The translations under genes and the position numbers were made by a program. Shown here piece by piece: positions 10,660-60,758 of a stretch of 64,000 nucleotides of DNA (the stretch's first letter is position 1; every line of letters starts with the position of its first letter). The notes under the pieces were generated by a model that saw only the letters and a program-made list of their open reading frames with translations, searched no databases and was not told the origin of the DNA. The DNA is from Enterococcus mundtii (GTDB taxonomy: Bacteria > Bacillota > Bacilli > Lactobacillales > Enterococcaceae): contig NZ_AP019810.1 in the NCBI RefSeq assembly GCF_013394305.1, positions 2,370,001 to 2,434,000 on the forward strand, written 5' to 3'.

Positions 10660-11871
10660 GTGAAGTACAGTGAAATCATGGTTCGCTATGGTGAACTTTC
10701 AACAAAAGGAAAAAATCGTCGAAGTTTTATTATGCAGTTGGCACAAAATGTCAGACAGGCATTGAGCGATTTTCCTGAAATCAAGATCCACGCAGAGCGT
10801 GATCGGATGCATCTACTGTTGAATGGTGTAGACGGAGACATAGTTATCCCTAAGTTAGCGAAGATATTTGGGATCCAAAACTTTTCACCTAGCGTACGAG
10901 TAGAAAAAGAAGTACAAAGTTTAAAACAAGCGGTTCAGGAAATCATGCAAGAAATCTATACAGGAAAAGAAACATTCAAGATCATTGCAAAACGTAGTGA
11001 TCATAGCTTTGAATTGGACAGCAATGAACTAAACCAAGCATTAGGAAATGCAGTCATCGATGTTTTTCCGGATATCCAAGTACAAATGAGAAAGCCAGAT
11101 ATTGCGTTGCGTGTGGAAATCCGCCGCGATGGGGCTTATCTTTCCTATGAAACGATCAAAGGAGCTGGCGGTCTGCCTGTCGGTACAAGCGGAAAAGGTA
11201 TGTTGATGCTTTCTGGAGGGATCGATTCTCCAGTTGCCGGTTATTATGCCATGAAACGTGGGGTAGAAATTGAAGCTGTCCACTTTGCTAGTCCACCTTA
11301 CACGAGTGAACAAGCCTTGCAAAAAGCGAAAGACTTAACAGTGAAGCTGACACCCTATGTTGGTAAAATCGAATTTATCGAAGTACCGTTTACAGAAGTG
11401 CAAGAAGAGATCAAACGAGTGGTGCCCCAAGGCTACTGGATGACGATCACACGTCGGATGATGCTTCGTTTGACAGATGAGATCCGCCGTATTCGTCATG
11501 GACTAGTGATTTTAAATGGTGAATCATTAGGACAGGTGGCTTCCCAAACACTCCAAAGTATGGTGGCAATCAATGAGGTCACGAATACACCGATCATTCG
11601 TCCTGTAGCGACGATGGATAAATTAGAGATCATCGAAGTGGCTGAACAAATCGATACGTTTGATTTGTCCATTCAACCATTTGAAGACTGCTGCACGATT
11701 TTTGCACCGCCACAGCCTAAGACTCGTCCACGACTAGAAAAAGTGCATCAATACGAAGAACGTTTGGATATCGATGGGATGATCGAACGTGCTTTGGCAG
11801 GCTTAAAGATCGAAACGATCCACACAGAAACAGCAAAAGAACAAGTAGAAGAATTTTCTGATTTACTTTAA
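10660..11871 (+). CDS. thiI: tRNA 4-thiouridine synthase ThiI
   Basis: ThiI adenylates U8 of tRNA and inserts sulfur. The 403-residue protein has the N-terminal ferredoxin-like/THUMP region (about residues 60-165) and a PP-loop ATPase domain with [11 protein letters not shown] (about residue 184-194). It has no C-terminal rhodanese domain, as in other Firmicutes, so sulfur must come directly from the desulfurase encoded just upstream. The GTG start at 10660 is preceded by GAGGAG. A cysteine pair occurs in FEDCCTIF near residue 344. Confidence 0.96.
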
Positions 11872-11949
11872 ACGAAGGAACTTGTACTTCTTGTACGAGT
11901 CGATCATTCGTAATAAAAGATCCAGACTCAAGAAGTAGACACGTGAAAG

Positions 11950-12035
11950 AGGACGAGACAATTGTTTAGCCTCGAGAAATAAGGCGCCATCCACGAAAAT
12001 TGTATGTTAAATTTTGTGGATGGTACCTTATTTTT
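11950..12035. repeat. Two-hairpin intergenic element, copy at 12 kb
   Basis: A small hairpin GAGG...CCTC is followed by GAGAAATAAGG and a long hairpin in which CCATCCAC pairs with GTGGATGG around an AAAATT/AATTTT inner stem (11977-12035). It is close in sequence to the copy at 58381 and is the likely thiI terminator. The 260-bp gap between thiI and rex holds nothing else except the rex promoter. Confidence 0.7.
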
Positions 12036-12066
12036 CTTGTTTTTCATGGAGTTAAGTTTCCTCCTA

Positions 12067-12095
12067 TTGCGAGGTTCCTTGTTCCATGCTAAACT
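12067..12095 (+). promoter_or_regulatory. Promoter of rex
   Basis: TTGCGA (12067-12072), a 17-bp spacer and TAAACT (12090-12095) lie 36 bp before the rex start codon. Confidence 0.6.
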
Positions 12096-12130
12096 AAAAT
12101 TATGTGAAATGATTAACAAGGAGAAACGAT

Positions 12131-12784
12131 ATGCGAGAAAAATCAGAAACGTTACCCAAAGCAACAGCGAAACGGTTGCCTTTATATTTGCGCTATTTAA
12201 ATATGTTGAATGATTCTGGTGTTCAACGAATCAAATCAAATGAATTTAGTGAGATCACACAAGTACCTTCTGCCACGATCCGCAGAGATTTTTCTCATTT
12301 AGGAGAATTAGGACGAAGCGGTTATGGGTACGATGTTCCCTATTTGATTGAAGTATTTGATCGAATTTTGAACACAGAGGAAGAAAAAAGAATCGCTTTA
12401 GTTGGTTTTGGGAATTTAGGAAAAGCATTGAAACACAACAATTTCAGAAGAAATGCAAATTTGAATATTGTTTGTGTATTTGACAATGATCCAGCCATCG
12501 TCGGAAAAGAAATCGAAGGTGTGATGGTTTATCCTATGGATCGCTTTAGTGAAATCGTTGAAAAAGAAGGAATCAAAGTGGCGATATCAACTGTGCCAAG
12601 TAAGTATTCACAAGCAGCCATCGACGAAATCGTCAAAGGAGGCATTACTGCGATCTTGAACTTTGCACCAGATCGTGTCAACGTTCCGCCACATGTCCAT
12701 ATGCAATACATCGATCTGACAACTGAACTACAGACGTTGATCTATTTTGATGAAAATTATTCGCAAGTCTTTCCTTCCAAGTAA
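12131..12784 (+). CDS. rex: Redox-sensing transcriptional repressor Rex
   Basis: Rex binds DNA when the NAD+/NADH ratio is high and is released by NADH, controlling fermentation genes. The 217-residue protein has an N-terminal winged helix (about residues 1-80, with SATIRRDFSHLGELGRSGYGYDV split over the recognition region) and a Rossmann domain with the nucleotide loop VGFGNLGKAL near residue 97. Length and both domains are complete. AAGGAGAA precedes ATG 12131. It is not in an operon here; the valS leader starts about 100 bp later. Confidence 0.96.
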   Translation: MREKSETLPKATAKRLPLYLRYLNMLNDSGVQRIKSNEFSEITQVPSATIRRDFSHLGELGRSGYGYDVPYLIEVFDRILNTEEEKRIALVGFGNLGKALKHNNFRRNANLNIVCVFDNDPAIVGKEIEGVMVYPMDRFSEIVEKEGIKVAISTVPSKYSQAAIDEIVKGGITAILNFAPDRVNVPPHVHMQYIDLTTELQTLIYFDENYSQVFPSK

Positions 12785-17871: not shown

Positions 17872-17934
17872 AAATAAAATAAATATCCTCCTTTTTCGTA
17901 TCTTATTTTGAGCGCACGGGAAAGGAGGTTTTTT

Positions 17935-18392
17935 ATGGAAAAAAATTTGCTTCAAACAGTACCCGCCACGTCTCTACCAAGGGAGAGGATGGAGACTTAT
18001 GGAGAGGATGCGTTATCAGATCAAGAGCTTTTAGCCATTTTGCTTCGGACTGGTCAGCATCCATATAACGTATTAGAAGTTGCGGGTACGTTATTGAAGA
18101 AATTTGGTGGTTTAGCGCTCTTGAGACAAGCAACACTAGCAGAATTAGAAGCGGTTCGTGGGATTGGTCGGGTCAAAGCCTTAGAGATCAAAGCATTGAT
18201 CGAGCTGGGGCGACGGATACAAGTCGATCAGTTGCGTCAAACAACGACTGTCCATGCGAGTTATGAATTGGCAAAATAATTGATCCTAGAACTAAAAGAT
18301 CAAAAACAAGAACATTTAGTTTGCATCTATCTCGATACCAAAAATCAAATCTTACTAAAGAAAACCTTATTCATCGGGTCATTGGATCAGAC
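17935..18392 (+). pseudogene. radC: radC, 5' part, with in-frame stop and cut by prophage
   Basis: The RadC (UPF0758) N-terminal half is intact from ATG 17935 (AAAGGAGG upstream) through the helix-hairpin-helix segment VRGIGRVKALEIKALIELG. Codon 115 is TAA (18277-18279), yet the same frame continues with clear RadC sequence (LILELKDQKQEHLVCIYLDT...LFIGSLDQT in two stretches) up to the prophage junction. The sense codon was probably CAA for Gln. So translation would stop at 114 residues, and the JAMM metal-binding part lies 39 kb away at 57563-57799. Confidence 0.93.
18391..18392. other. attL core (radC / prophage left junction)
   Basis: RadC coding sequence ends at GATCAGAC and phage sequence begins AGTAAGTAATAG. 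The only bases shared in register with the right junction are AC. A 2-bp core is what serine recombinases use. Confidence 0.75.
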
Positions 18393-18410: not shown

Positions 18411-19820
18411 CTAAAAAATAAAATTGATAATTACGTCTTCATTTTTAAGCGTAACATCATTAATAAGTCTACGGATAAGATCTATTTTTAATTCGGTACC
18501 TGTGTTTTCCCAGTCGAAGTTTTTAGCTTCTTCTAAAAGCAAGATTTTCTCATTTTTATCATCTTTGATTTTTAGAGAGTTTAGATCATTCTTCAATTCA
18601 TCTAAAACAATATTTATAGAATCAATTCGATTATTTAAAGTTTCAACTTCAATGTTTCCAAATTGATAAAGATCAATTAGTTTACTTTTTTCTACTTGCT
18701 TTTTTTTGATTGCTTTTTTTAGTTCGTTTATTTGATCAACAGTATCTACCTTCTTATTTTCAATATCCATTTTGATTTTTTTAAAATCTAAATTCTTAAC
18801 TGCAGCGATTACCTTGTTTTCGACATCCTTACAGCGAAGTCGTTTTTGATTACAGTCCCAGTCTTTAACAAGGGACGGCATCATTTTCTTTACTGATCGG
18901 CACGTATAATAAGCATAGTTATATCTCTTACCTTTGTAACTACCGCCGCCACCAACTTCTCGAAATACTTTTGCCCCACATTTTCCACAATGAATAAATC
19001 CTGCTAAAAGAGATTTTTGATTATGATTTGTACTACCTAATTTTGCTTTTTCTTTGAATATTAATTGCGCTTGATTGAACAAGTCTTGGGAGATAAGCGG
19101 GGTGTGATTTCCTTGGTAGACATTACCATCCCAACTAATTTTTCCGATATAAAGCGGGTTTCGAAGTGCATACTTGATGATCGTTAGTGTTTTTACCTTA
19201 TCTGGATATTTCTTAACCATCTTTTTGGTAATGTATTGTTGACCTTTTCCGTGGTTTACATAAAGATCAAATATTTCGCGAACAATAGTTGCCTCGTACT
19301 CGTTGATTATTAGCTCACCATTTATATAGTCATAGCCTAAGGGTACAACTCCTGATCCGTGGTAATAGCCTTGCTTTGCCCTTTCAGTACGACCCATGTG
19401 CATTCTTTCAGTGATTGTATCTCTTTCTAACTGTGCAAAAACTGATAGCATACCAATCGTTGCACGACCGAATGGGGTAGAGGTGTCAAAACTTTCTAAC
19501 ATAGAAATAAAATCGACACTATGCTTTTGAAAGACATCTTCAATTAAATACAGGGTATTTTTTTGAGATCGAGAAAGCCGATCCAGTTTATAAACGATGA
19601 CAATATCAATTTTTTTAGCCTTGACATCAGAAATTAATTGATTAAGTCCGGGACGATCAAGTTTTGCACCAGAATAGCCTGGATCAGTATATGTGTTTAC
19701 AACATAGTAGTCTTTTGCTTCCGCATAAGCTTTAAGCTTGCTTGTCTGCGCAGGGATTGAGTATCCTTCTTTTGCTTGTTCCATAGTAGAAACTCTTATA
19801 TAGAGTGCCGCTCTTTTCAT
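18411..19820 (-). CDS. int: Large serine recombinase (phage integrase)
   Basis: The 469-residue protein integrates and excises the prophage. The resolvase domain starts AALYIRVST with the catalytic Ser at residue 11 and includes VYKLDRLSRS. It is followed by a recombinase domain (VPLGYDYING...) and a zinc-ribbon domain with CGKCGAKVF and a second CRS...C pair, then a C-terminal coiled coil rich in Lys and Asn. ATG 19820 was chosen because GGGAG lies upstream; an in-frame ATG at 19856 lacks one. The stop codon lies 19 bp from attL, as usual for these enzymes. A directionality factor is needed for excision; no candidate is recognised. Confidence 0.97.
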   Translation of the reverse strand: MKRAALYIRVSTMEQAKEGYSIPAQTSKLKAYAEAKDYYVVNTYTDPGYSGAKLDRPGLNQLISDVKAKKIDIVIVYKLDRLSRSQKNTLYLIEDVFQKHSVDFISMLESFDTSTPFGRATIGMLSVFAQLERDTITERMHMGRTERAKQGYYHGSGVVPLGYDYINGELIINEYEATIVREIFDLYVNHGKGQQYITKKMVKKYPDKVKTLTIIKYALRNPLYIGKISWDGNVYQGNHTPLISQDLFNQAQLIFKEKAKLGSTNHNQKSLLAGFIHCGKCGAKVFREVGGGGSYKGKRYNYAYYTCRSVKKMMPSLVKDWDCNQKRLRCKDVENKVIAAVKNLDFKKIKMDIENKKVDTVDQINELKKAIKKKQVEKSKLIDLYQFGNIEVETLNNRIDSINIVLDELKNDLNSLKIKDDKNEKILLLEEAKNFDWENTGTELKIDLIRRLINDVTLKNEDVIINFIF

Positions 19821-19927
19821 ATAGTAATCGCTCCCAATTTTTGATACAATAGGCATAGCAAATAAGCCTTTTGTTTTATTTGTATTGCACGCTCTTACTT
19901 TAGTCGGTTGGGCGTGCTTTTTTAATG

Positions 19928-49263: not shown

Positions 49264-50292
49264 ATGTTAACGATTCGAAATTATGAAGAAACACAAGAAG
49301 AACTCCTGACCGATTACGATCAGGGGTCTTTTTATGAAAACTGGCAAATGAACGAAACGTGGGAAGTCGGTTTTGTTATTCGAAAAACAATTCGAAACCG
49401 TGTTGTGTATGATTTAGTGACTTACGAGTCTTCTGTCATCTTTCAAGGCCAACAATTTGTCATCAAAGAAATGCAAGAGTCGGCAGTTGGAGAAGCGGTG
49501 TATAAAAAAGTTGTGGCCACACATGTCTATTACACGATTCAAGACGGGTATCAATACAATAAAATTACCGGTCGGCGAACCCCGATGCAACTCTTGATGC
49601 ACATACTAGGAACAGGTGCTCGCGGTTTTACTTGGCAGTTAAGCGGTGGATTTCCAGCAACTGACAAGGAAAACTTTGGAGATGCGAATTATTTACGGTT
49701 GATCAATGAAGTCCTACAGGACTTTCGTTTAGTTGTTATTCCGGACAATAAACATTTACGCTTTATGTCCGCCGATGCGTTTGGCAAAAAAGTCCATGAG
49801 CCGATTCGATTTAAGCATAATACGGATGAAGTGATATTCGACATTGACACGTACAACTTAAAAACCCAGATTCGTGGATTTGGCGCGTTGAAAGAAGGTG
49901 TGGAAACAGATGATCCTCGGGAGAGTGATTATGTTTTCCCTCCAGTCACACTTACCAGTCAAGAATCGGCAAAATGGGGGATTCGAATTCAAGATCCTGT
50001 TCGAGATGAACGCTATCATCATCAGGAAAGTATGATGGAACGCTTGAGAAATGACCTACAAGATACACCGAATATTTCAGGTGTCGTTAAGTTGAAGTGG
50101 AAGACGCCAATACAAAAAGGCGATCACGTTCCCTTTATTTATGAGCCGATGGGAATTTCTACGTATATTCAAGTAGTTGGGCTTAAAACATTTCCCTTAG
50201 TACCGAACAAACCACCTGAAGTGGTTCTCTCGAACACTAAAAAAACAATGACGAAACTATTGGTTCAATTACGACAGAAAGGAGTGGTGTAA
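49264..50292 (+). CDS. Tail tip protein, Tal N-terminal type
   Basis: The 342-residue protein matches the prophage tail (gp44/Tal N-terminal) family that caps the Dit ring: MLTIRNYEETQEELLTDYD at the start, RTPMQLLMHILGTG in the middle and RFMSADAFGKK. It is short and has no lytic domain, so the tip lacks a visible wall-degrading enzyme. AGGTGAACC precedes ATG 49264. Confidence 0.85.
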   Translation: MLTIRNYEETQEELLTDYDQGSFYENWQMNETWEVGFVIRKTIRNRVVYDLVTYESSVIFQGQQFVIKEMQESAVGEAVYKKVVATHVYYTIQDGYQYNKITGRRTPMQLLMHILGTGARGFTWQLSGGFPATDKENFGDANYLRLINEVLQDFRLVVIPDNKHLRFMSADAFGKKVHEPIRFKHNTDEVIFDIDTYNLKTQIRGFGALKEGVETDDPRESDYVFPPVTLTSQESAKWGIRIQDPVRDERYHHQESMMERLRNDLQDTPNISGVVKLKWKTPIQKGDHVPFIYEPMGISTYIQVVGLKTFPLVPNKPPEVVLSNTKKTMTKLLVQLRQKGVV

Positions 50293-51338
50293 TGAATTTA
50301 AAAGAATTAGTCAGTAATCGGATTTCAAGTGAATGGAAGAAACTATTTAACCATAATGTCCGTGAAACAAAACAAGAAGTCGACTCAATCCATACACAAC
50401 AGCGTGCCACCAACCAACGAATTTCTAATCTAATCCTTAGTGCCGGAGGAAAATCACCAAATGAAGTGGTAGATGCACGAGTGGATCATGAGGGTACGCT
50501 ACACCAAACCTTAAACGATCGATTATTAAGCGGCGAACAAGGCGTTGCTAGGCGTATGCGTGAGCTAAAACTTCAATTAGCCAATCAAGGGGCTTCAGTC
50601 GAACAGATTAACGAAGTCATTCAACAACTGTTTTCACCTAGTGCAGCCACATTAAACATCTACGTTTCTGCTACACGAGGGGATGATCGGACAGGTATTG
50701 GGTCAGAGGAACGACCTTTTCAAACCATCCAAATGGCCGTCAATACGATTCCACTTTTAAATCTTTCTTCGATTACGATCTGGGTAGAAGACGGGGTGTA
50801 TTTAGAAGATGTCCGAGTAGCGAATATTCAGGGTAGTTCATTGGTTATTCGCACGATTCAAAGTCAAGAAACCTTAGCGCCAGCTACTCATGATTTGCCG
50901 GTAAAAGTCAGAAGTATTGGCTTCTTCTTCTGTAGTGGCTATTTTCAAATTTTAGGTATTCAAATAGTGGATACTGCAAATGCTCCTATTTTCCAAGGCA
51001 GAAGATATGGGATCATGAATGAGCAAGGCGGTTATATGGCGATCGCTTCTTGTAAATTTGGGGAGTCCACCCAACAAGCGGCTTATAATGCGCTCTATTG
51101 TGGCGGGGCATCGAAGATGAATGTTTATGGGCGAACTACTTTTGTGAATCAAGCGCTCGCGATTCATTCACGACTTATGGCAGAAATTAACGTGGGAGAT
51201 ATTTCGGGTTCTGGAAATACCGTAGGTTTTCGTTGTGACTCAGCGACTTTACGAGGAAACACGCCTTCCGGTTTTGCTAGTACAGCGACTCAAACTGCAG
51301 GTGTCGGATTGATTGTAACTAAAGGGACGGTGTTATAA
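50292..51338 (+). CDS. Baseplate protein with beta-helix-like C terminus
   Basis: The 348-residue protein has a helical N-terminal third (residues 1-115) and then LNIYVSATRGDDRTGIGSEE, a typical start of a right-handed parallel beta-helix, with short repeating beta strands up to the C terminus (GNTVGFRCDSATLRGN). Such proteins act as fibres or bind cell-surface sugars. It overlaps the Tal gene by one base. Host receptor unknown. Confidence 0.75.
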   Translation: MNLKELVSNRISSEWKKLFNHNVRETKQEVDSIHTQQRATNQRISNLILSAGGKSPNEVVDARVDHEGTLHQTLNDRLLSGEQGVARRMRELKLQLANQGASVEQINEVIQQLFSPSAATLNIYVSATRGDDRTGIGSEERPFQTIQMAVNTIPLLNLSSITIWVEDGVYLEDVRVANIQGSSLVIRTIQSQETLAPATHDLPVKVRSIGFFFCSGYFQILGIQIVDTANAPIFQGRRYGIMNEQGGYMAIASCKFGESTQQAAYNALYCGGASKMNVYGRTTFVNQALAIHSRLMAEINVGDISGSGNTVGFRCDSATLRGNTPSGFASTATQTAGVGLIVTKGTVL

Positions 51339-53525
51339 ATGGAAGAAAATCAGTTTTTTAAGGTGGCAAACAAACCCATTGTTATTGATACGGTCCAACA
51401 AGCTATCATCGACAATGGGACCACTTTTTATTCTCATGACCGTGGAACGGCAAAAATCGACTTCTTTTTAAAAAATGAAGGAGTGGCTTTTTCTATCCCG
51501 AAAGGAACACTTATTCCAATTCGATTAACGTTTCCTTTGGAGACGGCCGAGGATGGGCTAGCGAGACATGATTATTTAGCTGTGGTAGATGATCCGGTCA
51601 ATGGTCATGTGCATGTTGTATTAGAAGAGAATATTTTAGGGTATCAGGGAGTTGTAGAGGGTTCTGTTTATGTAAACTTTCCAAATCAACAGTCCCTTGA
51701 TACTGCTGGACGATTTAGGTTCAGGATCCATCGTAGTCCTTTGGAAGAAACGACAAATGAAATTGATGCCTATTACTTCAATGGGTTTAATTGGTTTGCC
51801 CAGCAAGTCGAAGAATTGACGGATTCAACCAAACAGGAGATTGAAAAACTATTTGCTCGAGCAAATGACCAATCGGTTAGTTTGGAAGAAAAGGTAAAAA
51901 TGCTGGATGAAAAAATTAATCAAACTGAGCAACAAATCAACGAGCTAGGTAATCTAAAACGGATGTACTCAAACAGCATTGATTTAGGTAATTACGACTA
52001 TTCAGGGAATGCCAATTTGTTACCAAAGATTACAGCTGCTCATTTTACATCGGGAAATGGAGCTACGGTTGAAGATGGACCAGATGGCGAGATCATTTTT
52101 ACGTTAGATGGATCTGCACAACTAACTAAATTTAATACAAGCATGCGTTTACCCGCTCTTCAAAATGGCAAGAGATACACCATCAGCGCCGAGATTATGT
52201 TACATGAAGGTTTAGAGGGAGATGCCTCTAATATTCGATTAACTAATACCTACGTACCAGGTGGAAATATTATGTTATCTACAGTTAGACCTCTCCCGAC
52301 AGCTACTAATATCTGGCATACGATTAGTGGTACGCAAATAGCAACTTATGCGACTACACTGCCTCAACAGTGGTATGTAGTCTTACAAGATGTTACAGCC
52401 TCGAGTCGAATTAAGGGGAAAATTTCTCTTCGAAATATAAAGATAGAAGAAGGAGCGGTTGTTACGCCTTATCAACCCAATCTATTAATTGCTCCTTACC
52501 AGATTTCGAAGATTTCCTTGAACAAAAACCTAGCAAATAAAGAACAAGCTTTCCCGATAAGTAGTCGACAGTATTTAGTATATTCTGCTGAAATGATTGA
52601 ACCATTTATTGCTAATCAAACGTATACATTAACTTTGAAAGGAACCAAGCTAGGTACACAATCATTTAGGGTATACACAACTGGTCCCAATAGCACTTCT
52701 AATATTGGTGACATGGAAATAGTAGAAGGTTTAGCAGATACATGGAGACTCACTTTCACACCAACATCTGCTAATTTGAATGGGAGTGTTTCACCTAGCA
52801 CGTTACAAATTTATCAATTTCCTCAAGCAACAATGGGGCAAGTAACGATTGACTCATTGAAAATAGAAAAAGGAGGGATAGCTACTCCCGATATTTCTGA
52901 GCACAAGTACTTTGGTGAAGGTATCAAAGATAGCAATAATCCATACGACTACAGCTGGGATGTCACACCTGAATACACTGAAAAAAGGTTGAATGACAAA
53001 GTAAGTCTGACAGATCCACAATCTATTGAAGGGACAAAGGATTTTCTTGAACAGCCTTATATTGAAGGTGAACGTATATCAACTGAAACCTTTGGAATCT
53101 CCTTAATTGGTGGAAGATTAACAGGAGTACCCGTTTCAGATGGGACTGTTTTAAATTGGGGTAATCCGTATGCTTATGATAATGAGCGATCAAAAACGAA
53201 TGATTTATTTACACTATCTGAAGACAATAAAACTTTAACGATTCTAAAAAACTGTGCGCTCCAATTTGTCGGTAAATTTACCTGTCAAACGAACGATGCC
53301 AGTTACCATGCTTATCTTGGGATGCGTGTAAACGGAGCCAGCGATTGGCGTGTAGCTGGTATTGCTGGTTCATTGAATTGGCGCAATGATGTTGGCTGGT
53401 TTTGTGTAAGAAAGTTTAATGCTGGAGAACGTGTCACGCTTGTGACAGAAACTAATTTTACCACTGCTTCAGTGAATAATTGGGGTGTTGATCAAGTGTA
53501 TATCAAAGAAGTTTTGGCAACATAA
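51339..53525 (+). CDS. BppU-like baseplate / receptor-binding protein
   Basis: The 728-residue protein starts with a BppU-type N-terminal domain (VIDTVQQAIIDNGTTFYSHDRG near residue 15), then a coiled coil (residues 160-205), two carbohydrate-binding-like beta domains (around 225-380 and 400-520) with KIEEGAVVTPYQPN and KIEKGGIATPD repeats, and a C-terminal head of about 150 residues. It probably determines host range. Confidence 0.82.
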   Translation: MEENQFFKVANKPIVIDTVQQAIIDNGTTFYSHDRGTAKIDFFLKNEGVAFSIPKGTLIPIRLTFPLETAEDGLARHDYLAVVDDPVNGHVHVVLEENILGYQGVVEGSVYVNFPNQQSLDTAGRFRFRIHRSPLEETTNEIDAYYFNGFNWFAQQVEELTDSTKQEIEKLFARANDQSVSLEEKVKMLDEKINQTEQQINELGNLKRMYSNSIDLGNYDYSGNANLLPKITAAHFTSGNGATVEDGPDGEIIFTLDGSAQLTKFNTSMRLPALQNGKRYTISAEIMLHEGLEGDASNIRLTNTYVPGGNIMLSTVRPLPTATNIWHTISGTQIATYATTLPQQWYVVLQDVTASSRIKGKISLRNIKIEEGAVVTPYQPNLLIAPYQISKISLNKNLANKEQAFPISSRQYLVYSAEMIEPFIANQTYTLTLKGTKLGTQSFRVYTTGPNSTSNIGDMEIVEGLADTWRLTFTPTSANLNGSVSPSTLQIYQFPQATMGQVTIDSLKIEKGGIATPDISEHKYFGEGIKDSNNPYDYSWDVTPEYTEKRLNDKVSLTDPQSIEGTKDFLEQPYIEGERISTETFGISLIGGRLTGVPVSDGTVLNWGNPYAYDNERSKTNDLFTLSEDNKTLTILKNCALQFVGKFTCQTNDASYHAYLGMRVNGASDWRVAGIAGSLNWRNDVGWFCVRKFNAGERVTLVTETNFTTASVNNWGVDQVYIKEVLAT

Positions 53526-53537
53526 AAGGAGGAAAAT

Positions 53538-53885
53538 ATGAAATCAATTTGGCAGTATGGACGAACAGGCGGGAAGTATGTTGGGAAAGTCTTGGACGAT
53601 AGTGTGATATCTGTTCCGTATACAGATGTCCCACCATTAAAAGGAATTGAATTAGCAGATCAGTTTTTTATTCCGACAGAAAACCGTTGGCAAGAATTAG
53701 AAAACGCAACACTTCGTGAAAAATTGGAAAATCTTGAATGTTTGTATGAAGAATTAAAAAAGCAAGATGAATGTAAAGGTGAACAGATTCAACAGATGGG
53801 ACAACTGAATGCCACACTCATGATGAATGATATCCAACTTGCCAATCAGTTGGCCGAAGTAAGGGAGGCGCTCCAAGATGTTTAG
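53538..53885 (+). CDS. Baseplate-associated small protein
   Basis: The 115-residue protein has an N-terminal beta segment (SIWQYGRTGGKYVGKVLDD) and a C-terminal coiled coil (ENATLREKLENLECLYEELKK). Genes of this type precede xkdX in many phages. AAAGGAGGAAA upstream. Confidence 0.68.
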   Translation: MKSIWQYGRTGGKYVGKVLDDSVISVPYTDVPPLKGIELADQFFIPTENRWQELENATLREKLENLECLYEELKKQDECKGEQIQQMGQLNATLMMNDIQLANQLAEVREALQDV

Positions 53886-54006
53886 CTATGAACAAATTGA
53901 ACGAATGTACCGGCAAGGTTTTTTCACTGCCGAACAAGTCCGGGTATTTGTGCCGTTAGCAATTTCTGAAAAACAATTAAAAAAACTACTGACTGAAGTA
54001 GAATAG
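53878..54006 (+). CDS. XkdX family protein
   Basis: A 42-residue protein, MFSYEQIERMYRQGFFTAEQ followed by VRVFVPLAISEKQLKKLL, fits the XkdX family found between tail fibre and lysis genes. GGGAGGCG lies upstream. Its role is unknown. Confidence 0.85.
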   Translation: MFSYEQIERMYRQGFFTAEQVRVFVPLAISEKQLKKLLTEVE

Positions 54007-54016
54007 GCGGTGACTT

Positions 54017-54250
54017 ATGGAGGGAATTACTATCGGGGAGTGGATCGCGATTATAACACTCGGTGGATCGTTGATAGTGGGTGTGGCGAAATTTTATGCG
54101 ATGTTCACGAAACTTGATCACACGTTAGGAAAATTAGAAAAGACGATCATCCGTGTAGAAAAAAGTCAGATTGACTATGGCAATCGGCTTTCAATTATTG
54201 AAGAACAAATCAGATCTATTTTTAAGCAAATTGGAAAGGAGAGAAAATAA
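54017..54250 (+). CDS. XhlA-like holin accessory protein
   Basis: The 77-residue protein has one N-terminal membrane helix (WIAIITLGGSLIVGVAKFYAM, about residues 9-29) and a charged helical tail (KLEKTIIRVEKSQIDYGNRL). This is the pattern of XhlA-like proteins that work with holin. AGGCGGTGA upstream. Confidence 0.75.
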   Translation: MEGITIGEWIAIITLGGSLIVGVAKFYAMFTKLDHTLGKLEKTIIRVEKSQIDYGNRLSIIEEQIRSIFKQIGKERK

Positions 54251-54251
54251 C

Positions 54252-54509
54252 ATGACAGAAATCTTAGCTGCTTCAAGTATTATTACACCACTAGTCGTAG
54301 GTGTCACAGGGTTAATCAAAACACAAATGAAGAATTACAAACTCTTACCCGTGATCAATGTGATTGCGGGTATTTTGTTAGGTGTGCTTTACGCAGTGAA
54401 CTTAGCACCACAAGATTTAGCAATCTACGCATGGGCTGGGGCTGTTTCAGGGTTAGCCGCTGGCGGATTATTTGATTTAGGAAACAGTGTTATTCAGTCG
54501 GAAGAATGA
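54252..54509 (+). CDS. Holin, A118-like
   Basis: The 85-residue protein has three hydrophobic segments (about residues 3-21, 32-50 and 57-76) and the pattern of Listeria phage A118-type holins. It makes the pores that let endolysin reach the wall. ATG 54252 follows GGAGAG, just after the XhlA-like stop. An earlier in-frame ATG has no ribosome site. Confidence 0.85.
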   Translation: MTEILAASSIITPLVVGVTGLIKTQMKNYKLLPVINVIAGILLGVLYAVNLAPQDLAIYAWAGAVSGLAAGGLFDLGNSVIQSEE

Positions 54510-54530
54510 CAAATTAGCAAAGGAAAAACA

Positions 54531-54551
54531 CAGCCAAAGGGCTGTTTTTTT
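54531..54551 (+). terminator. Terminator between holin and endolysin
   Basis: CAGCC-AAAG-GGCTG followed by T7. It would reduce endolysin mRNA relative to holin. Confidence 0.85.
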
Positions 54552-54576
54552 ATAAAAAAATTAGGAGGAATTGATT

Positions 54577-55470
54577 ATGACAAAAATTGTAGATTTAAGA
54601 GGCGATTCAAGAATTTTAGGACCAACCAATGCCAAAAGAAATGTTTCTCAAGTAACTAAAATTGCTCGTCATCATTCTGCAACATCTACTGGAGACGTTT
54701 GGGCGTTTCAGAATCATTGGAATGGCACATTGGGCTGGGGGACAGGCGGGTATCATGAAATCATTTTACGAGATGGTACCGTTCAATGGTGTTACTTCGA
54801 TAATGATGTGACAAATGGTGTGGGCGGGCATAATACACCAACTTACCATATTTGCCTTGTTGGAAATAGTTCATTTACAGCCGAACAAGAAAAAGCATTT
54901 GAAGAACGAGCAAAGGCGGCGATGCAACGTTTTGGTTTATCCGTCAATGATGTATTAGGGCATAACGAATTTAGCGGTCATACCTCGAATATCTGCCCAG
55001 GCATTAACATGAATACGGTTCGTGAACGATTACGAGCGGGGAATAACTTAACCCATGATCAAATTATCTTAGCGAGCCCCCCAAAAACGAGTGGGAATTA
55101 TGTAGGGAAGTTAGAAGTGTTTAATGAGCTACAATTGGGAATCTTCCGGATTGCTGGGTGGTTAGTGCCAATCAATGGTGCAGCGTATTTAAATCAGGGA
55201 TACGTCTTCTGGATGGATGCCGACAATCCAAATGTCGAAATTGGGCGTTGCAAATCAGCCGGTATTATCAGAGATGATGTGAATGCAGCCTATGGATTAC
55301 CTAGTGGCCTGCGATTTGGTTTGGATGGCACACTAGATATCCGTAAATTTGCAGGGAAAAGAGTCTTTCCGATGTTGCGACGAACAAACGATCCGAACGG
55401 AAATACGATCAATGGACAAACAATCGACATTCGATTTCCTGAGTATGTTTTGACGATTCCTAAGCGATAA
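54577..55470 (+). CDS. Endolysin, N-acetylmuramoyl-L-alanine amidase
   Basis: The 297-residue enzyme has an N-terminal Amidase_2 domain: IARHHSATSTGDVW with the first zinc His pair (about residue 34), GGYHEIILRDG, and LGHNEFSGHTSNICPG with the last zinc ligands (about residues 129-145). The C-terminal 130 residues (from SGNYVGKLEVFNEL) look like a duplicated beta wall-binding domain. No signal peptide, so it depends on the holin. ATG 54577 follows TAGGAGGA. Confidence 0.93.
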   Translation: MTKIVDLRGDSRILGPTNAKRNVSQVTKIARHHSATSTGDVWAFQNHWNGTLGWGTGGYHEIILRDGTVQWCYFDNDVTNGVGGHNTPTYHICLVGNSSFTAEQEKAFEERAKAAMQRFGLSVNDVLGHNEFSGHTSNICPGINMNTVRERLRAGNNLTHDQIILASPPKTSGNYVGKLEVFNELQLGIFRIAGWLVPINGAAYLNQGYVFWMDADNPNVEIGRCKSAGIIRDDVNAAYGLPSGLRFGLDGTLDIRKFAGKRVFPMLRRTNDPNGNTINGQTIDIRFPEYVLTIPKR

Positions 55471-55594
55471 AAAATAGCCCTCGCCTGATGTGCACACCTT
55501 AAAACTAGATTTTAATTCTAACTTTTTGGGGTGTATATCGAGTTAGGGGCAGTACATATAACATTAACTTCTTATTAATAATTTATACTCTGGT

Positions 55595-55623
55595 TTGACT
55601 TCATACAGATCTAAAGGTATGAT
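55595..55623 (+). promoter_or_regulatory. Promoter of the two-gene membrane operon
   Basis: TTGACT (55595-55600), a 17-bp spacer and TATGAT (55618-55623), with a start expected near 55630. The 185-bp gap from the endolysin holds only this and a small CTAACT/AGTTAG inverted repeat. Confidence 0.75.
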
Positions 55624-55655
55624 TTGTTTAATTGGTAATTTCAAGGAGAACTTGT

Positions 55656-56183
55656 GTGGGTAAAAATGAGAACTATGCCAAATCGATAAAAAATTGGCTA
55701 ACGGTTATATCTTCTGTAACATTTATAGTGAATACATTTCAAGTATCAGAAATCGAATCAGTTTTTTTGTATTCCTTTACTTATTTATCATCTATTGGGT
55801 TAGCGTTTTACAATTTATCCCCAAAGGGTGGCCAAGCTAAAACCAGGCGTGTGAGAATGGTACAAAGCGCAATAGCCTGCGTAGCCTTTAACATTATAGG
55901 AAATATAGTTGGGGGTCTTCATCCAATAGTGAAATTAATTATGTTATACATAATAAAAGCAGCATATCTGATATTTGCTTCTTTAGCGATCATTTATACT
56001 TTTAAAGACGATTCTGATTTGGATACGGTTGAAGAAAAAAATGTTAGAATAAATGTAAGAAGAAAATTGCAAGAAAAAGAAGAAGCAAAGCCGTTTGAGG
56101 TTAGAGAGAAAAAGAAAGATGAGAAGAAGCGATTTCGGAAATTCATCTCGAATAAAAAGGTTTCTAAGGAGGACATAAAATGA
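55656..56183 (+). CDS. Membrane protein with charged tail, prophage accessory gene
   Basis: The 175-residue protein has four probable membrane helices (about residues 13-33, 40-60, 72-92, 96-120) and then a 55-residue highly charged, basic cytoplasmic tail (RRKLQEKEEAKPFEVREKKK). GTG 55656 is set by AAGGAGA 6 nt upstream. No family recognised. AT-rich, with its own promoter after the lysis genes, so it is likely expressed in the lysogen. Superinfection exclusion is one possibility, not shown. Confidence 0.72.
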   Translation: MGKNENYAKSIKNWLTVISSVTFIVNTFQVSEIESVFLYSFTYLSSIGLAFYNLSPKGGQAKTRRVRMVQSAIACVAFNIIGNIVGGLHPIVKLIMLYIIKAAYLIFASLAIIYTFKDDSDLDTVEEKNVRINVRRKLQEKEEAKPFEVREKKKDEKKRFRKFISNKKVSKEDIK

Positions 56184-56557
56184 ATACTATTATAATCGTC
56201 TTGGTTTCCATGTTGATTTATTATAGTGGGCTTATGTATCTATCTTATTCAGCCTTCAGAAAAAGTAAAATAAAAATAGGTTTTGTAACTATGCTTTTTA
56301 TACCAATTTTTATTCTTAAGAATTACATTATGATCGCATATAAACATAAAGACAATTCAAAAATTAGAAATCATGCTATTTTAGAGTTTTTCTTCGGATA
56401 TAATACAGGACTAGCTATATTAGTTGAAGTAGTGCGCTTTGGATTTGAGAAAAAATACATTACATCTGAGAAAAAAGAACGTAACGGTATTTCAACTTTG
56501 ATTACAAAAGTAAAAGATATTTTTTCTAATACTTTAGACGAGTATTTAGTTTATTAA
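56180..56557 (+). CDS. Second membrane protein of the accessory operon
   Basis: The 125-residue protein has three probable membrane helices (residues 3-24, 32-51 and 67-87) and a basic end. It overlaps the preceding gene by 4 bp (ATGA), so the two are translationally coupled and may form one membrane complex. AAGGAGGAC precedes ATG 56180. No family recognised. The non-coding RNA array begins about 65 bp after its stop. Confidence 0.72.
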   Translation: MNTIIIVLVSMLIYYSGLMYLSYSAFRKSKIKIGFVTMLFIPIFILKNYIMIAYKHKDNSKIRNHAILEFFFGYNTGLAILVEVVRFGFEKKYITSEKKERNGISTLITKVKDIFSNTLDEYLVY

Positions 56558-56625
56558 AAAGTTATTACCAGAAAAAATTCGACAATATAGCAGATATTGG
56601 TTTTTATTAGAATAAAGCACATTAC

Positions 56626-56716
56626 TTGAACGATAAATAAAATCATAGTAGTCTAAAGTTGTCCTAGATACTTATGATTTATTTTTCCAAGCCCACTCTC
56701 CGGAGTGGGTCTTTTT
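56626..56716 (+). ncRNA. Type B small RNA unit 1
   Basis: Promoter TTGAAC (56626-56631), 17-bp spacer, TAGTCT (56649-56654). RNA from about 56661 with a variable insert, ending in CCCACTC-TCCG-GAGTGGG (56692-56709) and T6: about 55 nt in all. Confidence 0.7.
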
Positions 56717-56752
56717 TATAGTTAAGACCCCAACATATAAAAAACAAAACGC

Positions 56753-56868
56753 TTGCAATAAACTTTGGTTAGACTTAAACTAGCGATAGGTGCAATTATA
56801 CAAAGAGAGTATCGATAGCAAAAAACTTTTGGGGAAGTTCATAGCTGCGTATCGATACTCTCTTCTTT
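56753..56868 (+). ncRNA. Type A structured RNA unit 1
   Basis: Promoter TTGCAA (56753-56758), 17-bp spacer, TAAACT (56776-56781). The RNA forms a 15-bp stem (AAGAGAGTATCGATA / TATCGATACTCTCTT) closing a loop with a bulged G, a GCA/TGC pairing and an inner hairpin AACTT-TTGGGG-AAGTT, then a T-rich tail. About 80 nt. Confidence 0.72.
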
Positions 56869-56906
56869 AATTATAACATACGTGTTTTATTAGGCAAAAT
56901 GATCAG

Positions 56907-56990
56907 TTGAATGACAGATAAAAAGATAGTAATCTTATTGTATCACCCTAACAACATTGCTTTTTTTACATCCCGCTCTTTGGAGCGGGG
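56907..56990 (+). ncRNA. Type B small RNA unit 2
   Basis: Promoter TTGAAT (56907-56912), 17-bp spacer, TAATCT (56930-56935). Hairpin CCCGCTC-TTTG-GAGCGGG (56972-56989) without a T-run, so the transcript may run on into unit 3. Confidence 0.65.
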
Positions 56991-57010
56991 TACATAAACG
57001 AACATATTAT

Positions 57011-57113
57011 TTGAACATAACCTGAAATAGTAGTAAGCTTTACTTAGCCTCACTAATGCGGATTGAATCCTTTAGTGGCCCGCTCTTTTCGAGCGGGTAT
57101 TTTTTTGTTTAAA
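57011..57113 (+). ncRNA. Type B small RNA unit 3
   Basis: Promoter TTGAAC (57011-57016), 17-bp spacer, TAAGCT (57034-57039). The insert itself can fold (CACTAA...TTAGTG), followed by CCCGCTC...GAGCGGG and T7. Confidence 0.7.
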
Positions 57114-57160
57114 ATAAGATTCGATCAAAGTTTAAGAATTCTCAGATTAAGACAAGGTAC

Positions 57161-57280
57161 TTGCAATAATCACTGGTTACCCATAAGGTGTGAATAGGCA
57201 TCATTATAAAAAAGAGTACCAATGGACAAAGTTTTAAAAACTTGGGGAAGTTTTCAGCGTGCGCATTGGTACTCTTTTTA
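57161..57280 (+). ncRNA. Type A structured RNA unit 2
   Basis: Promoter TTGCAA (57161-57166), 17-bp spacer, TAAGGT (57184-57189). A 16-bp stem (57209-57224 with 57264-57279, including GAGTACCAATG/CATTGGTACTC), different in sequence from unit 1 but paired, encloses the same bulged G and an inner hairpin AAAACTT-GGGG-AAGTTTT, then ends in T5. Confidence 0.72.
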
Positions 57281-57324
57281 TGATTCTATCACATGTGTTT
57301 TAAACAGCAAGGAAAGCGTATTAC

Positions 57325-57404
57325 TTGAATGCGGGGTCAAACTCTAGTATTGTGAACTTGACCATATATATTCATATGTTAACGTCCGTGCCACTCTCCG
57401 GAGT
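57325..57404 (+). ncRNA. Type B small RNA unit 4
   Basis: Promoter TTGAAT (57325-57330), 17-bp spacer, TATTGT (57348-57353). Hairpin CCACTC-TCCG-GAGTGG, without T-run, like unit 2. GGTCAA/TTGACC (6-bp arms) flank the -10 box. Confidence 0.65.
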
Positions 57405-57428
57405 GGTATACATAAAAGAACATATTGT

Positions 57429-57524
57429 TTGAATCTAAAACAAATTGATAGTAATATTTAAGTATCCACATCAGACATTCTTTATCCTAAGACAGCCCGC
57501 TCTATATGAGCGGGTGTTTTTTTT
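57429..57524 (+). ncRNA. Type B small RNA unit 5
   Basis: Promoter TTGAAT (57429-57434), 17-bp spacer, TAATAT (57452-57457). Hairpin CCCGCTC-TATAT-GAGCGGG followed by TG and T8. It ends about 40 bp before attR. Confidence 0.7.
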
Positions 57525-57562
57525 GTGTTAGTTACATTTATTGGTATTTACTATTGTTTATT

Positions 57563-57564
57563 AC
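57563..57564. other. attR core (prophage / radC right junction)
   Basis: Phage sequence TTGTTTATT is followed by ACGATCGCGCATCCACG, where RadC (T-I-A-H-P-R) resumes in frame with the 5' fragment. Confidence 0.75.
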
Positions 57565-57799
57565 GATCGCGCATCCACGTGAAGTGTTCCATTACGCAGT
57601 CCGTTATTCAGCAGCACGGCTTGTCCTTGCTCATAATCATCCTAGCGGCAACGTTCTTCCATCCAAGCAAGACATGCGATTGACACGACGCATCCAGGAA
57701 TGTGGAGAGATGATGGGGATCGAAGTTCTTGACCATCTGATTATTGGCAGCAAACAATACTTTAGTTTACGTGAAGAAGGATTAATGGAAAAAGAATGA
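57563..57799 (+). pseudogene. radC: radC, 3' part
   Basis: This is the C-terminal 78 codons of RadC, starting T-I-A-H-P-R-E-V-F and containing the JAMM metal-binding segment LAHNHPSGNVLPSKQD. It has no start codon with ribosome site of its own, so it is probably silent. Joined to 17935-18392 it gives a normal-length RadC of about 230 codons, apart from the TAA at codon 115. Confidence 0.93.
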
Positions 57800-57809
57800 T
57801 GTAGCTTTC

Positions 57810-57838
57810 TTGCAAAAAAAAACAACCAAGTGTACAAT
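57810..57838 (+). promoter_or_regulatory. Promoter of the cold-shock gene
   Basis: TTGCAA (57810-57815), a 17-bp spacer and TACAAT (57833-57838). The start near 57845 gives a leader of about 100 nt, usual for csp mRNAs. Confidence 0.75.
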
Positions 57839-57948
57839 TATAATGTAATTTTGTTTGGGAATAGAAGTTGAAACATCTGTTGCACCTCTATCGTACACGA
57901 GCAATGTTACAATCAAATAAGTGCTTTGGCACGAGGAGGGTATTATTA

Positions 57949-58149
57949 ATGGAAAACGGAACAGTTAAATGGTTCAACGCTGAAAAAGGATTTGGTTTTA
58001 TCTCACGTGAAGATGGAAGCGACGTATTCGTACATTTTTCAGCAATCCAAGGTGACGGATTCAAAACATTAGAAGAAGGTCAAGCAGTTACTTTTGACGT
58101 AGAAGATTCAGATCGTGGCCCACAAGCTACAAACGTTGAAAAAGCGTAA
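57949..58149 (+). CDS. Cold-shock protein (CspA family)
   Basis: This 66-residue RNA chaperone binds single-stranded nucleic acid. The RNP1 motif KGFGFIS (residues 15-21) and RNP2 VFVHFSAI (residues 28-35) are intact, and the length is standard. ATG 57949 has GAGGAGGG upstream. The long leader suggests control at the RNA level by temperature. Confidence 0.97.
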
Positions 58150-58213
58150 TCTATACGAAAATATACTGTTATGAGGCTTGCTTTGTCATGGAGCGAACCA
58201 AATAATTGATGAC

Positions 58214-58310
58214 AGAGGTCGAAACCAACGTGTTTCCCTCGAAAAATAAGACGAGACCCACAAAAATTGTTCTTTCATATTTTTGTGGGTCTCACTTTTT
58301 TTTTATAAAA
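58214..58310. repeat. Two-hairpin intergenic element after csp (terminator)
   Basis: GAGG...CCTC small hairpin, then GAAAAATAAG and a long hairpin GAGACCCACAAAAAT / ATTTTTGTGGGTCTC followed by a T-run, so it also ends the csp transcript. The 331-bp gap between csp and rnjA holds this copy and the inverted one at 58381, nothing else. Confidence 0.75.
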
Positions 58311-58380
58311 AAACCGCGAGTAGGACATTAGTTCTCACCACCTAAAACCGAATAAACGGCGGTAACAGAAGAACCTCTTC

Positions 58381-58472
58381 AATAAACAAGGCGCCATCCA
58401 CAAAAAATTGAAGAACAATTTTCGTGGATGGCGCCTTGTTTATCGAGGTTGAACACTTATGTCGCAACCTCG
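58381..58472. repeat. Two-hairpin intergenic element, inverted copy (rnjA terminator)
   Basis: AAACAAGGCGCCATCCAC pairs with GTGGATGGCGCCTTGTTT (58383-58441) around a CAATTTT/AAAATTG-type inner stem, then CGAGGTTG pairs with CAACCTCG (58444-58472). The orientation is opposite to the copy at 58214. It lies just after the rnjA stop and can end both strands. Confidence 0.75.
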
Positions 58473-58480
58473 GTTTTAAG

Positions 58481-60160
58481 TTAGTTTTGATCCGGTGTCA
58501 TCACCATAGGGATGATCATTGGATGTCTTTCTGTACGATCGAACAAGTAAGGTTGTAATGCACCGACCATCGCTTCTTTTAATTTATGCTCCGAACAGTC
58601 GGGGGCATTTAGCACATCACGCAATGCGTGGAACAAAATACGTTGTGCTTCATTGATCATATCCCCTGATTCACGCATATAGACGAAGCCACGAGAAAGG
58701 ATATCTGGTCCAGCTAGAATCTCTTTTTTCTTGATATCGACAGTTGTCACTGCAAGAACGAGTCCTTCTTCTGAAAGTAAATGACGATCTCGTAAAACAA
58801 CATTACCGATATCACCGATTCCACTGCCATCGATATAGACATCGCCAGCGACGAATTTTCCAGCTAAACGAGCAGAATCACTTGTTAATGCTAATACATC
58901 ACCGTTTTCCATGATAAAACAATTCTCAGCTGGTACACCTGTGTCTTGTGCAAGAGAGGCATGGATCTTCAACATCCGAAACTCACCATGCACCGGTACA
59001 AAATATTTTGGCTTCATCAAGCGAAGCATCAATTTTTGTTCTTCTTGACCACCGTGGCCAGATGTATGGATATTATTGATTTTTCCATGGATCACTTCAG
59101 CGCCAGCTTCAGACAACAAGTTGATCAAATGGTTCACACTTGTTGTATTCCCTGGGATCGGTGAGCTAGAAAAAATCACTGTATCATCTGGTTGGATTTG
59201 GATTTGACGGTGGGTACCATTCGCAATGCGGCTCAATGCAGCCATTGGTTCACCTTGCGAACCTGTACATAGGATCATTGTTTCATTTGCAGGCAAACGA
59301 TTGATTTCATGCGCATCGACAAAGGTACCGTCAGGCACTTTGATGTAGCCGAGACGTTGTCCGTTGACGATCGCATTTTCCATACTACGCCCGAAAACAG
59401 CAATTTTTCTACCCGTTGCTACAGCGGCTTCCGCTGCTTGTTGTAGACGGAAGATATTAGAAGCAAAGCTGGCAAAAATGATCCGACCTTCGATTTTCTC
59501 AAATATTTTCAAAATAGAAAGGCCAATCGTTTTTTCTGATTTCGTAAACGTTGGAATCTCTGCATTGGTACTATCTGAAAGGAGGCAAAGAACGCCTTCT
59601 TCTCCGATACGAGCCATTTTATGCAAATTTGCTGGTTCTCCTACAGGTGTAAAATCGAACTTGAAATCTCCAGTAGCCACGATGTTACCAGAAGGTGTTT
59701 TGACAACCACACCTAAAGCATCCGGAATACTATGGGTCGTTCGGAAAAAGCTGACGGATGTTTTTCTGAAACGGATCACAGTGTCTTCATTGATTTCATT
59801 TAGCACAGCGTCACGAAGTAAGCCATGTTCGTCCAGTTTATTTGTGATCAAAGCTAAAGCTAGAGGGCCAGCGTAGATCGGGATATTTGCTTGCTTTAAT
59901 AAGTAAGGTATCCCACCAATATGGTCTTCGTGTCCATGAGTGATCACTAAAGCTTTGATTTTGTGTATGTTTTGTACGATATAGTTGTAATCAGGAATGA
60001 CGTAGTCAATGCCAAGCAGTTCATCTTCTGGAAACTTGATTCCAGCGTCGATGATAATGATTTCATCTTGGAATTGTACCCCATACGTATTTTTCCCGAT
60101 TTCACCTAATCCACCAATCGCAAAGACGCCTGTCTCATTATTTTTGATGGAAAGTTTCAT
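58481..60160 (-). CDS. rnjA: Ribonuclease J1
   Basis: RNase J is a metallo-beta-lactamase/beta-CASP nuclease with 5' exonuclease and endonuclease activity central to mRNA decay and rRNA maturation. The 559-residue protein has the zinc motif [14 protein letters not shown] (about residues 72-85), the beta-CASP block and the C-terminal [10 protein letters not shown] (about residue 368). GGAG precedes ATG 60160. It lies one base after rpoY, so both are one operon. Confidence 0.97.
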
Positions 60161-60161
60161 C

Positions 60162-60374
60162 TTAAAACTCCACTAATGTGAATGCTGGGTTTTCTTTTTC
60201 GTATTCTAGATGATTACCTTCTAGAAGTTGTACGAATTCGATATTGTATGGGGTATTTTCTTCCACTCGTTGGCGTGCTTCAACATCGCTGTTTGCTTCG
60301 ATGTATAGCGATTGTGTTTCTTCACGTTTTGGGTTACGGATTTTTGACTCTTGATAATAAACTTTGTAAATCAT
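60162..60374 (-). CDS. rpoY: RNA polymerase epsilon subunit
   Basis: The 70-residue protein ([19 protein letters not shown]...) is the small DUF1447/epsilon subunit found next to rnjA across Firmicutes. It binds RNA polymerase near the active-site side of the beta' jaw. AAAGGAGA precedes ATG 60374. Confidence 0.95.
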
Positions 60375-60758
60375 GGTTTATGTCTCCTTTATCTGCTTAA
60401 AGCAGTAATTTAGCGTATTTTTTGGACAACACAAAACGAGGGGACAAGCCACCTGTGTTTTTTTATACTTTAAGAAAAATACTTGATTCTCCTTAAAGAG
60501 ACAAGCCTCGCATTTGCTTATCCAATTGGAATATTTTTTACTCGGATCCTCTGTATGAAACATACAATAGTTAATTGCTATTCTAGCATAAATCAAGAGA
60601 TAAGTATAGAAAACGGTCACTGTAAAATGAAAAAACGTACGAAGAGAAAATATTTTTCAGAAAAATTTCTTTTTAAAAAATGTAGTGTTCTATAAAGTAG
60701 TAGATTGTGCTACTATTGAAAGTAATGGCAAGATAGAATATTTAAAGGAGATGATAAA
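60375..60758. other. Divergent intergenic region between rpoY-rnjA and the ABC exporter
   Basis: 384 bp without a gene. Leftward it holds an extended -10 element (TATGCTAGAAT on the minus strand) that would give rpoY-rnjA a leader near 200 nt. Rightward it holds TAGTAG-ATTGTG-CTACTA (60698-60715), a perfect 6-6-6 inverted repeat 45 bp before the exporter start, a possible operator. Confidence 0.5.

Follow-up and report, generated by a model that had tools for sequence, protein, structure and literature searches.

The window analysed here is a 64-kb stretch of the Enterococcus mundtii genome, and a location search has placed it at positions 2370001–2434000 of contig 1 of the 3.3-Mb genome; coordinates given below are those of the window. 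It contains a prophage inserted in radC, in the order 5' part of radC, integrase, holin, amidase, two small unassigned genes, an array of short repeated units and the RadC C-terminal domain. By its sequence, the segment at 17908–18279 is presumably the first part of radC, and the minus-strand integrase gene adjoining this half (18411–19856) is of the large serine recombinase type and belongs to the phrog_95 integrase and DNA invertase families. The genes for the holin (54171–54509) and the amidase endolysin (54571–55470) are on the plus strand upstream of the array. The RadC domain begins at residue 20 of the ORF at 57506–57796, a radC remnant, and the last unit of the array ends about 40 nt upstream of this domain. 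The site of the array is best explained as the interval between the prophage lysis genes and the right attachment site. Two long hairpins are located at 58237–58448 between a cold-shock gene and an RNase J-like gene, and the matches of this segment to eukaryotic microRNA families in Rfam are weak and below the gathering scores.

The array consists of five plus-strand units, U1 to U5, whose TTGAA boxes start at 56626, 56907, 57011, 57325 and 57429, in agreement with the initial annotation. As had also been described, a 17-nt spacer ending in TAG leads to a TAnnnT box in all five units, and T-runs follow the hairpins of U1, U3 and U5 and neither of those of U2 and U4. U1 (56626–56716) has TTGAAC at 56626–56631 and TAGTCT at 56649–56654, and its predicted +1 is 56661 (GUCC), so that a predicted RNA of about 56 nt ends at a terminator hairpin (56691–56710) with its T-run. 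U2 (56907–56989) has TTGAAT, TAATCT at 56930–56935, a predicted +1 at 56942 (AUCACCC) and a hairpin without a T-run at 56972–56989, from which a linker runs into U3. U3 (57011–57107) has TTGAAC, TAAGCT at 57034–57039, a predicted +1 at 57046 (AGCC) and a terminator with a T-run at 57078–57098, and its insert contains a small hairpin of its own. U4 (57325–57406) has TTGAAT, TATTGT at 57348–57353, a predicted +1 at 57360 (GACC) and a hairpin without a T-run at 57391–57406. U5 (57429–57524) has TTGAAT, TAATAT at 57452–57457, a predicted +1 at 57464 (AUCC) and a terminator with a T-run at 57495–57515. An ATNAN motif upstream of TTGAA is common to four of the five units. The pattern TTGAA-N14/15-TAGTA has five matches in the 64 kb, all inside the array, against a shuffle mean of 0.45, and the composite TTGAA-N18-TAnnnT-N28..40-CCNCTC-loop-GAG has five matches in the window, all in the array, and none in 100 shuffles (mean 0.00). 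Terminator-like sites in 55500–58500 number three against a shuffle mean of 1.2, and these are the hairpins of U1, U3 and U5.

A simple sigma-70 scan of 55500–58500 flagged none of the five U promoters and returned 10 sites against 12.3 expected, one of which is the minus-strand promoter of the element X1 described below. Therefore, the case for the U promoters rests on conservation, recurrence and shared detail. Of 17 sources scanned, 12 gave a total of 32 units in a search demanding TTGAA, AGTA, TAnnnT and the hairpin. In all 32, a purine stands at the predicted +1, 7 nt past the -10 box, and CC occupies +3/+4 in 23 of them, the remaining nine being U2 copies; a purine at +1 and CC at +3/+4 are what real starts would be expected to show. 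CC at +3/+4 is present in six of seven unrelated insert classes (binomial P of about 6e-9 if the classes are taken as independent). Among 24 aligned units picked for TTGAA, TAGTA and the hairpin, all have T as the sixth base of the -10 box, a position that played no part in the selection; the unit at L159 5639, which this set omitted, also has T there. When the promoter together with the RNCC start was searched for in 16 genomes, 11 of 11 matches without mismatch lay at U-unit loci by their coordinates, and 15 matches with one mismatch comprised seven at U-unit loci and eight elsewhere; the backward-read control gave 19 matches at up to one mismatch.

The survey of hairpins covered both strands of 13 related loci, some of them near-copies of each other, and gave 80 matches, 35 of which carry a T-run. 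Among these 35, a strict promoter precedes 22, a promoter with an 18-nt spacer precedes two and one with an altered -35 box precedes one; the remainder are three promoterless U1b-like copies and seven copies of a class, U6, that is positioned after X and whose copies all lack a TTGAA box. Loss of promoter boxes with retention of hairpins in homologous prophages, which the initial annotation had said would speak against its reading, is thus seen in part. U6 is a CCTACTC-type terminator found at L009 8693, L010 7747, L157 8202, L158 7106, L159 5943, L023 11920 and L161 148, and it may end a plus-strand transcript running through X. The compensatory exchange of A-T and G-C pairs in the stem, noted earlier among the five units, is real, with stem positions 3, 4 and 7 changed on both sides in the 35 hairpins of the 13 loci. 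Standard pairs occupy 242 of the 245 pair cells, a share biased upward because the search demanded at least six of seven pairs. An alignment of 24 units by MAFFT gave no consensus structure because the hairpin was misplaced in it, and the arms were then compared one by one; a covariance model, R2, with 10 pairs from a poor alignment, was left out of the results. By the usual signature of a G+C-rich stem followed by a U-run, the hairpins of U1, U3 and U5 are predicted to be plain intrinsic terminators, and those of U2 and U4 lack the U-run. The hairpins without T-runs are partly decayed in relatives, with a mismatch in U2 of L009 and loss of pairing in U2 of L024.

Two minus-strand elements, X1 and X2, which the initial annotation had missed, lie between the plus-strand units. 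They have a promoter with an extended -10, a 16-bp stem, a ACUUCCCC loop (CUUCCCC) and a U-rich tail. X1 (56795–56897) has a -35-like TTGCCT, an extended -10 (TATGTTATAAT), arms at 56803–56817 and 56850–56864, an apical loop ACUUCCCCAA and a U-rich tail. X2 (57203–57310) has a TAGAAT -10 and arms at 57209–57224 and 57264–57279 that pair at 16 of 16 positions; its stem sequence is unlike that of X1, and the motif CUUCCCCAA is common to both. The covariance model R1, which had both elements in its training set, scores X1 at 108 bits and X2 at 91 bits. Stems were compared in 20 of 21 copies taken, these being in register, and one copy in L167 with another stem was dropped. There are 12 distinct stems, and 6 of the 12 positions examined are changed on both sides with pairing and loop kept, several of these changes presupposing homology of a distant form that keeps the loop but differs in its stem. 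At two positions a single stem is mispaired, and most stems are unpaired at the twelfth. RNAalifold, applied to the 12 sequences of the closer set, gives 29 pairs, three of them with changes on both sides. The covarying stem can be seen in the sequence directly; X is readable from either strand, and we infer that the minus strand is the one transcribed.

A possible opposing promoter on the plus strand, TTGCAA-N17-TAAACT (56753–56781), reads into X1 from the left and could give an antisense transcript of it; a similar sequence is recognised by eye at other X loci, and TTGCAA-N17-TAAGGT (57161–57189, plus strand) likewise would read into X2. These putative promoters lead to the idea that the main role of the U and X RNAs is to control one another or a transcript of the opposite strand, with X acting against a plus-strand RNA and U acting as type I antitoxins, and the loops of X and of its antisense RNA would then be complementary. 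Among 18 ORFs of at least 20 amino acids in 56560–57560, two are hydrophobic, one of 30 residues (56554–56646) antisense to the U1 promoter and one of 26 residues at 57142–57222, as a type I system of the par/Fst kind might include. However, the other units do not share the 30-residue ORF, and the strong U–X duplexes are raw predicted values. We regard antisense control of this kind as quite unlikely. An antisense peptide gene as the cause of promoter conservation was rejected, because the MILFI... frame lies opposite only 3 of 18 unit promoters at four loci, all three being U1 copies, and is absent from two of five U1 copies.

The seven insert classes are unrelated past +4, with 1 of 21 class pairs reaching p<0.05. 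U1 has three unrelated inserts between one promoter and one terminator: insert a in the window and L009, insert b in L009, L159, L162 and L024, and insert c in L156, L157, L022, L023, L160 and L161. With promoter and terminator unchanged around three putative pairing sequences, U1 would allow the origin of new sRNA specificities to be examined directly. Hypervariability is not a general property of the inserts, since those of units other than U1 are recognisably the same across loci; thus, the inserts of one given unit are mostly recognisable between prophages, and those of different units are unrelated. Between the window and L024, the promoters of the five units are 83–97% identical and the U1 terminator is 93% identical, the inserts are 56% (U1), 69% (U2), 94% (U3), 81% (U4) and 76% (U5) identical, and the left and right flanks are 31% and 55% identical. 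The block from U3 to X2 says little because it is near-identical throughout, including the U3–X2 spacer (48 of 48 positions), and part of the identity to L024 reflects close kinship.

These comparisons bear on whether the units are eroded accessory (moron) genes, that is, promoters and terminators left over after deletions and kept only as recombination linkers. The site after the lysis genes is a usual accessory spot in prophages, U2 is fused to a T-run terminator at L009 5364, L022 10629 and L158 10453 as if hairpins acted as junctions, and three of the 35 T-run hairpins are promoterless. Leftovers of this kind would not account for a TTGAA-to-hairpin distance held at 63–71 nt among the strict-promoter units, for inserts of U3, U4 and U5 mostly kept between prophages, or for an RNCC start common to otherwise unrelated inserts, and erosion is therefore an unlikely origin. 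Rather, the boxes, the +1 purine, the distance to the hairpin and much of the unit order recur at related loci, and together with the three U1 middles this supports the initial annotation in so far as it took the units for related genes of short RNAs and not for terminators left behind at random. Beyond paralogous sRNA genes, the units may amount to a bank of RNAs that temperate phages carry as cassettes, in which the terminator and the promoter with its fixed RNCC start stay constant and recombination there swaps the pairing sequence between prophages, resident prophages using the set and the opposite-strand C-loop RNAs to control host and rival-phage messages; this is a tentative proposal, on the improbable side.

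In its own genome, the array has copies at two more loci, 914–920 kb and 1474–1478 kb, each within reach of holin and endolysin genes. The units lie 3' of the endolysin gene wherever lysis genes are in view (the window, L009, L010 and L022). At E 0.001, 3 of the 15 other genomes of the genus that were searched hold copies. The unit pattern is matched by five of the 106 genomes of the family, four of them with the match at U-unit loci within the genus and the fifth, G029, with a match judged by its sequence to be due to chance; the backward control gives two matches. Array relatives occur in the viral collection at L022, L023, L024, L160, L161 and L162. This recurrence, like the units and their terminators, is a property of the DNA as read.

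The strict X pattern occurs in 4 of 396 genomes of the order, all within the genus, and the distant X-like form is invisible to it. R1 gives weak matches to the distant form in five other genomes of the genus and matches at E 2e-4 to 0.005 in six genomes of other genera; the two of these six that were aligned, L170 and L171, are plain hairpins without the loop and were rejected. A short, loose X pattern has 18 viral loci and at least 119 loci in the genome collection, and among the loci listed R1 matches L022, L023, L024, L056 and L072 alone, the match in L072 being degenerate. BLAST finds the distant form, unannotated, in eight phage records (three Enterococcus, four labelled Listeria and one labelled Acinetobacter) and in 10 Enterococcus plasmid records, nine of them from E. 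faecium, and it lies downstream of the holin, amidase and a tRNA gene in two annotated phages. The phage records H22 and H25–H28, labelled Acinetobacter or Listeria, are 91–97% identical to an Enterococcus phage region, possibly through mislabelling or mixed samples. In L168 and L172, the distant form is outside a recognised prophage setting, next to a gene that we take to encode a choloylglycine hydrolase; therefore, members of the X family may occur in the chromosome as well. These two loci, the modular repeated parts and the several copies per genome would fit mobile repeats similar to BOX elements or MITEs, in which any resemblance to promoters is incidental. Since the own-genome matches at E < 0.01 are confined to three loci beside phage lysis genes, such repeats are a very improbable explanation.

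Some further features were noticed at the related loci. A tRNA gene with an odd anticodon arm follows the lysis genes in L009 (9779–9858, minus strand) and L022 (about 11024–11101); ARAGORN assigns the four-base anticodon tatt to that of L009, and similar phage tRNAs are annotated as tRNA-Met or tRNA-Ile. Just upstream of U1 in L009, L022, L160, L161 and L162 the sequences resemble each other, by eye, over a stretch that has a TATAAT-like box on the minus strand and shares its terminator with the upstream gene; most of it is missing from the window, and it may be a further small RNA. A second array in L009 adjoins an LPMO_10 gene and, by eye, a gene for a possible TIR-domain protein (11038–11682 and 11866–12723).

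The initial annotation favoured guide-type or sponge RNAs, and the three alternative middles of U1 between an unchanged promoter and 3' hairpin would indeed suit RNAs that recognise rival phages or plasmids through the middle and bind a protein through the hairpin. With BLAST, which very short matches could escape, the inserts have no significant match besides array copies in their own genome or in 50,697 phage records at E up to 1. With E raised to 10 against the phage records, the best of the best 40 of 56 records has E 0.9, nothing is significant, and a weak Vibrio phage match, among the matches listed, overlaps the U4 insert. The 72,556 plasmid records give one weak match, E 0.8, at the U2 promoter and none that is spacer-like. 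Furthermore, the T-run hairpins look like plain terminators, and none of the genes listed for the window stood out as coding for a nuclease. A guide function in the CRISPR sense is thus not supported, and guide RNAs of any such kind are very improbable.

These observations lead to the hypothesis that the array contains sRNA genes of the prophage, paralogous to one another, whose RNAs pair through C-rich seeds and work in the manner of LhrC or csRNA siblings, to which we assign a probability of about 0.6. We infer transcription and mechanism as follows. U1 to U5 would be read rightward, each from its own TTGAA-17-TAnnnT promoter, to give RNAs with a mostly unstructured 5' part and a purine start, usually R-N-C-C. 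The RNAs of U1, U3 and U5 would stop at their intrinsic terminators after about 56–62 nt, and U2 and U4, without a U-tract, would probably be read through into U3 and U5 to give two-hairpin RNAs. X1 and X2 would be read leftward into hairpin RNAs of about 65–80 nt with a C-rich apical loop. In predicted folds, the 5' parts of the U RNAs are mostly single-stranded, U3 excepted, and the CCCC of the X loop is unpaired. The C-rich 5' ends and loops may pair in trans with mRNAs of the host or of co-resident phages at their G-rich ribosome-binding sites, since several Gram-positive sRNAs are known to pair through exposed C-rich stretches (PMC4132741, PMC8216469). Target prediction, which had been proposed for the variable inserts, stands against this within the window, where the best duplex energies of the five inserts and the X loop are no better than the best of seven shuffles each. 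The constant promoter and terminator would place the RNAs under common control, and the differing middle would direct them to different targets.

The lhrC genes of Listeria monocytogenes stand in tandem, and the LhrC copies lie on the chromosome and resemble each other in body; the csRNAs of streptococci are chromosomal as well. LhrC1-5 are sibling sRNAs with a common LisR promoter signal, and C-rich UCCC motifs in their loops or single strands bind mRNA near the ribosome-binding site (PMC4132741). The present RNAs would resemble them as several siblings under a shared promoter signal with a C-rich motif that predicted folds expose in the X loop and at the U 5' ends. Unlike LhrC1-5, the U bodies differ completely between units, and the units are in a prophage; LhrC is absent from the Rfam matches up to E 5 in 50000–60500. 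The CiaR-dependent csRNAs are described as occurring several to a genome, partly in tandem, with a promoter signal common to them and a terminator downstream of it, and as having homologous and differing regions (PMC8186281, PMC4211561). The U units share all of these traits, being several per genome and tandem, with a shared promoter signal, a terminator and constant and differing parts, but their shared motif is not the CiaR box TTTAAG-N5-TTTAAG, a repeat that is absent, by eye, from the five promoter regions.

PrrF1 and PrrF2 of Pseudomonas aeruginosa are tandem sRNAs, and read-through of the first terminator gives the longer joint RNA PrrH (PMC4211561). A joint RNA by read-through is likewise proposed for U2–U3 and U4–U5, whose first hairpin, unlike that of the PrrF pair, has no U-tract, and this comparison concerns layout alone. 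RoxS, RsaE, FsrA and the sponge RosA have a C-rich pairing region (PMC8216469), and C-rich stretches are likewise present in the X loop and at the U 5' ends. In the Rfam scan of 50000–60500, in which nothing matched at gathering score, there is no family relation to these RNAs. The prophage phiEnfa003 of E. faecium has the candidates sRNA_1930 and sRNA_1940, detected by RNA-seq (PMC5593968); both these and the U and X elements are candidate sRNAs in an enterococcal prophage, likened by description and not by sequence. In the literature searched, no account of either this array or X was recognised, and the searches found no prophage cluster in which a constant promoter and terminator enclose alternative middles and C-loop hairpin RNAs of the opposite strand are interleaved. 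However, the earlier statement that no described system has this layout is too strong, since PMC4132741, PMC8186281 and PMC4211561 describe sets of sibling sRNAs, in some cases tandem, that have a promoter signal in common. The kind to which the array is proposed to belong, sibling sRNA genes under shared control, is already known.
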